From Methanomassiliicoccales archaeon (lineage in GTDB: Archaea > Thermoplasmatota > Thermoplasmata > Methanomassiliicoccales > UBA472), in assembly GCA_016926075.1 (NCBI GenBank), contig JAFGPG010000016.1:1-37238 (forward strand): a DNA stretch of 37,238 nucleotides, given 5' to 3'. The notes below the pieces were generated by a model. The model had not been told where the DNA came from. It searched no databases and was given only the letters and a program-made list of their open reading frames with translations. Each line of letters starts with the position of its first letter. Within the stretch, counting starts at the first letter, position 1. Positions 33,505 through 36,751 of the stretch are shown here, in pieces. The translations under genes were made by a program, and so were the position numbers.

Positions 33505-34362
33505 ATGTCAGACAAGGAAGGAATGAGAGCGGCAATTTACGCGAGGGTCTCAACGGAGGACCAGGCCAGGGAGGGTTTCAGCATAGGGGCCCAGCTCAAA
33601 AGGTTGCGCTCCTATTGCCTGGCCAGAGGATGGACGGTGACCGGTGAGTACGTGGACGAAGGGTTCAGCGGAAGGAGCGCTGAACGTCCGGAGTACAAAC
33701 GCATGATGCACGAGAAGGACCTATGGGACGTCCTGGTGGTCCTGAAGATGGACCGGATACATAGGAACGGTCACAACTTCACCCTCATGATGGACTTCCT
33801 CCGCTCCTGGAACAAGGAGTTCAACTCCATGCAGGAGAACTTCGATACAACGACGGCCATCGGCCGTTTCGTCATGGACACCATTCAGCGCATAGCCCAG
33901 CTGGAGAGCGAGCAGATCGGGGAAAGGGTCAAGATGGGCATGACCCAGAAGGCGATTGAAGGTAAGGGCAACCTCGGTCATCCAGCCCCCTACGGTTATC
34001 GATACCAGGAGGGTGAGCTGCTGTTGGACGAGGGGGAGTCTTTGGTCGTGGAACGCATCTTTCGCATGGCATCTAGCCTGTCCTCTCTTTCCCAGATATG
34101 CGAGCAATTGAACACCTCCAACATTCTGGCCAAGAACGGGGGACTGTGGCAGAGGGCCACAGTACATGGGATGCTCATGAACCGCATCTATATCGGGAAA
34201 TATGCATGGAACGGGATCGAGCGTGATGCTCCAGACCTCAGGATAGTGAGCGACGCGCTCTTCGAGGATGTCCAGGAGGTCATGACACTGCGTATCAGGT
34301 CCAGACGCAAGCCCAAGCGCATCTCACCCAAGAGCCTCTTCAAGAGGGAGGCCCATGCCTAG
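33505..34362 (+). CDS. Serine recombinase (resolvase plus recombinase domains), copy 1
   Basis: AAIYARVSTEDQAREGFSIGAQLKRLRSYC (catalytic Ser); KMDRIHRN; AIGRFVMDTIQRIAQLESEQIGERVKMGM; GHPAPYGYRYQEGELLLDEGESLVVERIF. Confidence 0.93.
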   Translation: MSDKEGMRAAIYARVSTEDQAREGFSIGAQLKRLRSYCLARGWTVTGEYVDEGFSGRSAERPEYKRMMHEKDLWDVLVVLKMDRIHRNGHNFTLMMDFLRSWNKEFNSMQENFDTTTAIGRFVMDTIQRIAQLESEQIGERVKMGMTQKAIEGKGNLGHPAPYGYRYQEGELLLDEGESLVVERIFRMASSLSSLSQICEQLNTSNILAKNGGLWQRATVHGMLMNRIYIGKYAWNGIERDAPDLRIVSDALFEDVQEVMTLRIRSRRKPKRISPKSLFKREAHA

Positions 34363-35221
34363 GGTGGCCATCTATACCAGGGTCTCCACCGAGGAACAGG
34401 CCAAGGAGGGATACTCCCTTGCCGCCCAGAAGGAAAGACTGGAGGCCTATTGCGAGGCCCAGGGCTGGGAGGTCGTCGCCCATTACGTGGACGAGGGTCA
34501 TTCCGGCCGCAATACGAGAAGGCCGGCGTACCAGCGTATGATGGAGGAGCGTCAGAACTGGGATATGGTCCTGGTCATGAAGATGGACCGCATACACCGC
34601 AACTCCAAGAACTTCATGATCATGATGGAGAACCTAGAGAAGTGGGGGAAGAAGTTCAGCAGCATGAGCGAATCCCTGGACACCTCCAACGCCGTGGGTC
34701 GTTTCGTGGTCGACATCATCCAGCGCATCGCCCAGCTGGAGAGCGAGCAGATCGGCGAACGCACATATATGGGCATGAGACAGAAGGCGGAATCCGGGAA
34801 TGGACTTTTAGGTTTCAGGGTCCCCTACGGATATCGTCTCAAGGACGGAACGCTGATGAAGGACGAGGAAGAGGCCCAAGTGGTCCGTTACATCTTTGAA
34901 ATGTACAGGTCCGGCCATACGATGGACATGATCGCCTGGAACTTGAACCGCGAGGACGTGACCACCAGGGCCAACGGACACTGGACGGTATGGTCCATCA
35001 GTCGGATCTTACATAACCCGATCTACGCGGGACACCTTAGATGGGACGGCCTGATGGTTCCGTCGAACCACGAACCCATCATCCCTGTGCAAGCGTTCAA
35101 CGAGGTACAGAGGCTCATCTCCCTCCGGGTAAGGAATCCCCAGCACCGGGCTCCGATCACATTACCCGAAAAGGGGGTGGTGGTGACCACAGAGTTACCA
35201 AGCATCCCGATCGATCAGTGA
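34355..35221 (+). CDS. Serine recombinase (resolvase plus recombinase domains), copy 2
   Basis: VAIYTRVSTEEQAKEGYSLAAQKERLEAYC; KMDRIHRN; AVGRFVVDIIQRIAQLESEQIGERTYMGM; FRVPYGYRLKDGTLMKDEEEAQVVRYIF; overlaps copy 1 by 8 nt. Confidence 0.93.
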   Translation: MPRVAIYTRVSTEEQAKEGYSLAAQKERLEAYCEAQGWEVVAHYVDEGHSGRNTRRPAYQRMMEERQNWDMVLVMKMDRIHRNSKNFMIMMENLEKWGKKFSSMSESLDTSNAVGRFVVDIIQRIAQLESEQIGERTYMGMRQKAESGNGLLGFRVPYGYRLKDGTLMKDEEEAQVVRYIFEMYRSGHTMDMIAWNLNREDVTTRANGHWTVWSISRILHNPIYAGHLRWDGLMVPSNHEPIIPVQAFNEVQRLISLRVRNPQHRAPITLPEKGVVVTTELPSIPIDQ

Positions 35222-35453
35222 CCTTCTATACCAAGTACGCCTTTTTACATCTGGCCAGTATCTAACAAGATCGATTCATAGGATATTCAACTAAAAATTG
35301 ATAACTTATAGTCATTCTAATAAGTCAGGCAATATAAAAGTGAATATGGCTATTAATACTTTGTGAATTATTATCGAATCTAAATCGACAAATAACGAAT
35401 ATCAATTTTACACTGTTAATAAAGTGTTATTCAAGATAGCCAACCAACAAAGT

Positions 35454-35462
35454 ATTTATTAT
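35454..35462 (+). promoter_or_regulatory. Candidate TATA box for the structured leader / AceTr-like gene
   Basis: TTTATTATA; typical archaeal spacing would place the start of transcription near 35485. Confidence 0.4.
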
Positions 35463-35485
35463 ACTCACATGAGAATGATAATTTA

Positions 35486-35624
35486 GGATTGTAATAACAA
35501 TCCATGAGACAGCACAGAAGGGAGAAGGGACAAAAATGGGAGAGATTAGGCAGAGCATTAGCCATGTCCGCAATTTTCTGCGGTCGCCACGGCTAATGAT
35601 CAATCTCATCCTTTCTTTTTGTCC
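35486..35624 (+). promoter_or_regulatory. Candidate structured 5' leader RNA (possible riboswitch or attenuator-like element)
   Basis: Hairpin GGATTGT-AATA-ACAATCC (35486-35503), then nested helices: GGACAAAAA/TTTTTGTCC (35528-35536/35616-35624), GGGAGAGATT/AATCTCATCC (35538-35547/35602-35611), CATTAGCC/GGCTAATG (35556-35563/35591-35598), CCGCA/TGCGG (35568-35572/35579-35583). A GGAG ribosome-binding site follows at 35633. Confidence 0.7.
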
Positions 35625-35644
35625 GTAAAAAAGGAGTGATAAAA

Positions 35645-36199
35645 ATGGCAGAAGAAAGCAATGTCCACATCAAGCTAGCAGGAGCTGAGGTACTGGGATT
35701 ATTCCTCGTTAGCTTGATAACCATCGTGGTCGGGATGTATGGTTTGGAAGCGACCGATGATCTAAGCGTGATCTTGGCCGTGGCATGGTACGTGGGTGTA
35801 GGGTTGTTCCTAACAACCATCATCGCGTTCCTGAACGAGAATGTACTGGTAGCGGCGGCCTTAGGCCTGTTCGCCATATTCTTGATGGGATTCTGCGACA
35901 TGGCCTGTGCAGGAGATGCTACAAGCTCTGAGGTCTACTGCATCTTCGTTGGGCTAGGCGTGCTCTTGGTAGGAGTGGTGTCCTTCGCCCAGCCGGTCAA
36001 GCTGTTGCCGATATTCCTCATCGTCGCTGCCCTGGCCTTCATATTCCTGGGGCTTTGGTTCGATATGGGAGAGGATGTCAGGATCATCGTGGGCATACTG
36101 TGGACCATCGTAAGCCTGATGGCGCTGTACATGGCAACCGCGATAGCCTTCCTGATGGTGAAGGGCAAAGAGGTCCTGCCTCTCATGATCAAGTCCTGA
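35645..36199 (+). CDS. Six-TM membrane protein, divergent AceTr (GPR1/FUN34/YaaH, SatP-like) candidate
   Basis: About 6 TMs in 184 aa; N-terminal KLAGAEVLGL and C-terminal ALYMATAIAFLMVKGKEVLPL follow the SatP layout. Start ATG 35645 after a GGAGTGAT ribosome-binding site. Confidence 0.55.
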   Translation: MAEESNVHIKLAGAEVLGLFLVSLITIVVGMYGLEATDDLSVILAVAWYVGVGLFLTTIIAFLNENVLVAAALGLFAIFLMGFCDMACAGDATSSEVYCIFVGLGVLLVGVVSFAQPVKLLPIFLIVAALAFIFLGLWFDMGEDVRIIVGILWTIVSLMALYMATAIAFLMVKGKEVLPLMIKS

Positions 36200-36574: not shown

Positions 36575-36751
36575 ATGGTGAAGATCATGAGCGAAGGAAA
36601 GACCACGATACAAATCACCGAAGCGACGAGGGACCGCCTATACAAATTGAAATTCCGCCGCACCTACGATCAATTCCTCAACGAATTATGCGACATGTTC
36701 GAGGAGAGCGATCAAGTAGACACCACATCAGTTCAGAAAATCGAATTATAG
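36575..36751 (+). CDS. Small ribbon-helix-helix-like protein (58 aa), not in the ORF track
   Basis: Manual translation: MVKIMSEGKTTIQITEATRDRLYKLKFRRTYDQFLNELCDMFEESDQVDTTSVQKIEL*; a beta strand followed by two helices, as in archaeal RHH/antitoxin-like proteins. Confidence 0.65.
   Translation: MVKIMSEGKTTIQITEATRDRLYKLKFRRTYDQFLNELCDMFEESDQVDTTSVQKIEL

Follow-up and report, generated by a model that had tools for sequence, protein, structure and literature searches.

Genes and features at the locus

The window analysed here, a stretch of 37,238 nucleotides, belongs to an archaeal assembly (G000) of 1.25 Mb in 124 contigs. At positions 35645–36199 of its forward strand lies a gene encoding a membrane protein of 184 amino acids, with six helices and a predicted SatP fold, that falls into no Pfam or NCBIfam family. 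An initial reading made from the sequence alone (hereafter the sequence-only reading) had described the product as AceTr-like, which holds for the predicted fold and not for the sequence family. Indeed, no sequence family was reached at its curated cutoff (AceTr_1 scored 8.3 bits vs a cutoff of 50), whereas an AlphaFold2 model built from an alignment of 20 homologues (pLDDT 86.7), used instead of a single-sequence prediction with a pLDDT of 58, matched SatP acetate channels with a TM of 0.81 and an E-value of 1.6e-4. The top six PDB matches were all SatP, and the next structural match was UreI, the urea channel of H. pylori (TM 0.60). Of 148 genomes from the order, 48 encode a homologue of the protein (E ≤ 0.001). 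In locus L027 (genome G015), a second channel gene follows the first in tandem, from position 2287 onward, and has no obvious leader of the kind described below.

Upstream of the channel gene the window carries two overlapping tandem serine recombinase genes (33505–34362 and 34355–35221; PF00239 and PF07508). Recombinase paralogues, mostly as a tandem pair, precede the channel gene in 18 of the 21 loci compared, which come from two families; this suggests that the pair has been vertically kept and is perhaps domesticated. A proline-dehydrogenase-like gene (PF01619) adjoins the channel gene in 14 loci, including L052 and L062, either before or after it depending on the family; none was seen in the window. 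Downstream, at approximately 36588–36750, there is a small DUF7557-like open reading frame (TTIQITEATRDRLYKLKFRRTYDQFLNELC), which has relatives close to the channel gene in six further loci.

Two predicted hairpins precede the ribosome-binding site

The DNA between the recombinases and the channel gene contains a TATA-like element, AAAGTATTTATTATA (35449–35463, forward strand, as are all features below), a putative promoter element whose 3' end lies 23 nt ahead of the first hairpin and in whose place relatives carry AAAGTATATATTATC at an equal distance. A 13-nt inverted repeat with 92% complementarity (35352–35364 and 35447–35459) lies around this AT-rich promoter region and is not obvious in the relatives. 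The first hairpin, HP1 (GGATTGT-AATA-ACAATCC), comprises 7 bp between 35486–35492 and 35497–35503. It is followed by the long hairpin HP2 (35528–35624), which is composed of P1 (GGACAAAAA with TTTTTGTCC, 35528–35536 and 35616–35624, 9 bp), P2 (GGGAGAGATT with AATCTCATCC, 35538–35547 and 35602–35611, including one A.A and one G.U), P3 (CATTAGCC with GGCTAATG, 35556–35563 and 35591–35598, 8 bp) and P4 (CCGCA with TGCGG, 35568–35572 and 35579–35583, closing a 6-nt loop). The Shine-Dalgarno (SD) sequence of the transporter gene, AGGAGTGAT (35632–35640), begins about 8 nt past P1 and is followed by the ATG at 35645.

Direct inspection confirmed every element proposed in the sequence-only reading, from the TATA-like box and the 7-bp hairpin through P1–P4 to the ribosome site, at the position given there. 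The helices were also recovered upon folding of positions 35480–35645 with RNAfold, as both the minimum free energy and the centroid structures included HP1 and P1–P4. The predicted energy was -50.6 kcal/mol, compared with -34.4 ± 3.9 for shuffled sequences (z -4.12; 0 of 200 shuffles were as stable).

The leader is conserved ahead of a single gene

The homologous loci named in this work originate from Methanomassiliicoccales and related MAGs; RumEn M1 (locus L066) is one of the members that carry the leader. For 29 homologous genes, the mean folding z of the leaders was -3.0, compared with -0.5 for DNA approximately 330–480 nt upstream and -1.7 at the start of the coding sequence. Some distant or paralogous homologues (L049 of family f2; L033) had no such leader. 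Four elements are common to seven congeners: HP1 (GGATTG...CAATCC), P1a (GGACA/UGUCC) as the outer helix, P2a (GAAGGGAGAGG/CCUCAUCCUUUC) with a single bulged A, and an inner hairpin that varies.

The 148 genomes were scanned with a covariance model (R1) that was built from the seven congeners and left out the window. The leader of the window was the sole match in its genome (E 4e-23). Overall, 13 matches with E ≤ 0.05 were obtained, each in a different genome; they span five genera, the window's and four further ones, and all of them lay directly before the same gene. An additional match in G017 (E 0.14), likewise directly ahead of this gene, brought the number of Methanomassiliicoccales genomes to 14. 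In the 14-member alignment, which is fitted by the model and thus leans towards structure, 93.4% of the cells pair and 9 of the 22 pairs are altered on both sides; none of 500 shuffles reached the observed covariation values, and sliding the pairing partners reduced every measure. HP1 showed compensatory change at all six model pairs among the relatives; the HP1 counts are slightly off because HP1 of the two g6 members was aligned to an extra hairpin. These two members of genus g6, L031 and L059, carry this additional hairpin (AAGCCGTTATGGCTT) between HP1 and HP2, and R1 aligned it as HP1.

Model-free alignments of closer subsets likewise contained compensatory pairs, namely five in L026/L028/L029, three in genus g17 and 12 in genus g14. 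Two further clade models, R2 and R3 (built on g14 and g17), extended the element into a second family and, at E < 1e-3, recovered only the leader of this channel gene, including that of the non-seed genome G050. When the region of HP1 was searched for perfect hairpins of any kind, which in several leaders selects a hairpin other than HP1, 22 distinct stem sequences were returned in 27 leaders, 11 of which were individually significant (p < 0.05). The shape of the leader is retained while its inner sequence drifts. Among the observations that the sequence-only reading had named as speaking against it were a lack of homologous leaders and a lack of compensatory changes, and the R1 matches in 14 genomes and the nine two-sided pairs run counter to both. 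Based on the folding z of the leaders, the matches of R1–R3, the covariation and the model-free subsets, we consider it highly probable that this RNA is a genuine cis-acting leader, conserved ahead of one gene.

Could the palindromic DNA rather be a recombination site for the adjacent serine recombinases, and not act as RNA at all? The recombinase paralogues upstream in 18 loci would fit such a role. However, there is a single copy of the element per genome, a proline-dehydrogenase-like gene separates the recombinases from the leader in family f6, and at L038/L058 the leader is present while recombinases are absent within 5 kb. A search for repeats gave only weak matches and no flanking invertible repeats. 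The leader tracks the channel gene and not the recombinases, and we rejected this explanation, which we deem extremely unlikely, on the grounds of copy number and synteny.

One pyrimidine strand has competing purine partners

HP2 contains a pyrimidine strand, CUCAUCCUUUC (35605–35615), for which the leaders offer more than one partner. Purine block A (GAAGGGA, 35517–35523) pairs with UCCUUUC in most relatives, forming P2a, and is displaced in the window, where purine block B (GGGAGAGATT, 35538–35547) provides the 5' side of P2. The main partner was block A in nine of the 15 leaders of the window's family (f1) that were examined, block B, with an upstream AUG there, in five including the window, and the SD sequence in one (L044). 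Since most relatives pair the pyrimidine strand with the earlier purine block, this one strand has competing partners. In the window both sides have changed in favour of block B: GGGATCACAA of the relatives reads GGGACAAAAA and TTTATGTCC reads TTTTTGTCC, which creates the 9-bp P1, while CCTCATCC has become AATCTCATCC, which lengthens P2 to GGGAGAGATT. Given these register counts and changes, the P1/P2 arrangement of the sequence-only reading is present in the window and in a minority of relatives and represents one version of the family element, the commonest version being a different one. The register alternation was seen between species.

Within the genus, GGGGAUCACAAUG and the purine blocks keep their sequence. 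The segment GGGGAUYRCAAU, which is predicted to be unpaired, is retained in genera g1, g4 and g5, in part of f1 only. The asymmetric internal loop AGGCAGAG/ATC, which had been put forward as a ligand or protein site, is not kept by the relatives, and we dismissed it as a ligand site.

These observations bear on the idea of a metabolite riboswitch, in which the substrate of the channel (e.g., acetate) or a related metabolite would bind HP1/HP2 and alter access to the ribosome site. A structured, gene-specific leader with alternative helix registers on a SatP-fold channel would suit this idea, as would the conserved and predicted unpaired GGGGAUYRCAAU. Yet no invariant pocket extends across f1 and f6, the AGGCAGAG/ATC loop is not conserved, and there is no relative in Rfam. 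Moreover, the scans with R1–R3 located the element once per genome and gave no convincing second site that would point to a wider regulon, and because no second gene carries the element no ligand can be inferred. We regard a riboswitch as unlikely. A leader bound by a protein, either through autoregulation or by an L7Ae-like RNA-binding protein controlling translation, has an archaeal precedent, as L7Ae binds a k-turn in the leader of its own mRNA (PMC6298567). Nevertheless, inspection of P2, by eye only, revealed no k-turn-like element, and the product of the gene, a membrane protein, is an improbable RNA binder, which makes this option very unlikely.

A candidate upstream open reading frame and predicted access to the ribosome site

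Block B overlaps the start of a candidate upstream open reading frame (MGEIRQSISHVRNFLRSPRLMINLILSFCP, stop; 35536–35628), which is predicted to cover HP2 and to stop just ahead of the SD. An ATG lies 105–114 nt ahead of the gene in 13 f1 leaders. The SD-like sequence of this upstream AUG had a median energy of -11.7 kcal/mol against the anti-SD, compared with -7.4 for the main SD, -5.7 for the genes of the window and a median of -5.4 (10th percentile -10.4) for random ATGs of the window; these strengths are calibrated on the window's genes only and use a 16S rRNA 3' end taken from general knowledge. The upstream frame was open to position -16 in eight of the 13 f1 leaders, or in nine if the window is counted, in which the stop codon ends at that position; for the other two frames the count was 5 of 26 (p 0.012 and 0.003 for the counts of eight and nine, respectively). 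This test was devised after the frames had been seen and ignores relatedness. An open frame that ends close to the start of the downstream gene was found in the window's family only; the upstream frame is missing from most f6 leaders and from L032, L037 and L038. Altogether, an upstream frame reaching the ribosome site of the transporter suggests translational coupling in the window's family. A conserved leader peptide was discarded as a candidate, as no peptide conservation was found beyond MGE. Between L028 and L029 the differences fall mostly on codon positions 1 and 2 with the base pairs retained, so that selection acts on the RNA structure rather than on the peptide; if the frame matters, it would be the act of translation that matters.

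We also compared the predicted accessibility of the SD with native and shuffled leader halves. Shuffling the 5' half left the SD less open than in the native leader (f1, p 0.039; f6, p 0.014), while in the window, taken individually, the 5' half opened it little beyond the shuffles. A designed anti-SD switch was rejected, as the 3' half hides the SD no more than shuffles do (p 0.98). In view of the 5'-half effect and the 3'-half null result, these predictions are consistent with a default-open leader rather than with a proven anti-SD switch.

A constitutive structural leader, in which HP1 and HP2 slow the decay of the mRNA and leave the ribosome site accessible with no regulated switching, would account for the position of HP1 at the predicted 5' end, for an SD that is predicted to be open by default and for a shape that is retained despite the drift of the inner sequence. 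The sequence conservation of GGGGAUCACAAUG and the purine blocks within the genus, however, goes beyond what a plain stabiliser needs, and the bias of the upstream frame is left unexplained. We consider this explanation rather unlikely.

Proposed mechanism

We favour upstream-ORF coupling over both the constitutive stabiliser and the ligand riboswitch. The best explanation, plausible though held tentatively, is a cis-acting leader that would control the gene at the level of translation, with coupling to the upstream frame in the window's family. HP1 at the 5' terminus and HP2 directly ahead of the ribosome site are, judging from the comparison of relatives, maintained by compensatory change. 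When HP2 is formed, an upstream purine block would sequester its pyrimidine-rich 3' strand, and the SD is predicted to be left fairly open, so that the default state would permit translation. The same purine region would, in the window's family, also start a short upstream frame running through HP2 and usually ending near the ribosome site; ribosomes on this frame would melt HP2 and pass on to the transporter. A shift of the pyrimidine strand from one purine block to the other could expose or hide the upstream start, and a ligand, a protein, temperature or the rate of translation might drive it.

In favour of this mechanism we count the gene-specific matches of R1, the covariation, the mean z of -3.0, the opening of the SD by the 5' half, and the strength and frame of the upstream AUG. 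Against it weigh the absence of the frame from most f6 leaders and from L032, L037 and L038, the post-hoc nature of the frame test, the unconserved peptide, the p of 0.98 for the 3' half, the small effect of the window's own 5' half and a register alternation seen between species. A bolder version, which we judge quite unlikely, would be a new class of translational switch in archaea: a single pyrimidine strand would alternate among purine strands that compete for it (block A, the upstream start site and possibly the ribosome site of the transporter), such that structure and upstream translation would jointly gate this small-molecule channel, perhaps according to the supply of its substrate.

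Significance and comparison with known systems

To our knowledge, few structured regulatory leaders have been described in archaea, and we know of little work on carbon uptake in Methanomassiliicoccales methanogens. The present leader accompanies a single channel gene of Methanomassiliicoccales and has no match in Rfam. If coupling or switching proved true, it would represent archaeal control through competing helices around an upstream open reading frame and might help to identify the substrate of the channel.

The sequence-only reading did not recognise a known riboswitch class, and the searches agree. The window had no match at the gathering threshold in Rfam 15 (4227 families), the relaxed threshold gave one irrelevant weak match (REN-SRE, 14 bits vs a cutoff of 41), and the loci of 16 relatives returned nothing up to an E-value of 1; a known riboswitch or RNA class was rejected on the gathering and relaxed thresholds. 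A literature search on Methanomassiliicoccales and riboswitches returned no paper on a leader of this kind, judged by title or abstract.

With regard to its product, the gene resembles the SatP/AceTr acetate channels (PDB 5zug and 5ys3), with which the predicted protein shares the six-helix fold (TM about 0.81), whereas sequence identity is only 16–18%. Short open reading frames in 5' UTRs have been detected by Ribo-seq in Methanosarcina mazei (PMC11456600). As in such leader-ORF coupling, the window's frame is short, has a good SD-like sequence and ends near the next start; unlike in those systems, it is predicted only, occurs in part of the family and encodes a peptide that is not conserved. 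Similar to the structured cis-regulatory 5' leaders and translational riboswitches of Rfam (Cis-reg), the element places covarying helices before the ribosome site of one gene and offers alternative pairings by the Shine-Dalgarno site, but it differs from them in matching no Rfam family and in its single-gene distribution. The leader is very probably a new, gene-specific family of structured mRNA leader absent from Rfam, the unusual feature of which is its competing purine strands, one of them bearing a candidate upstream start site.
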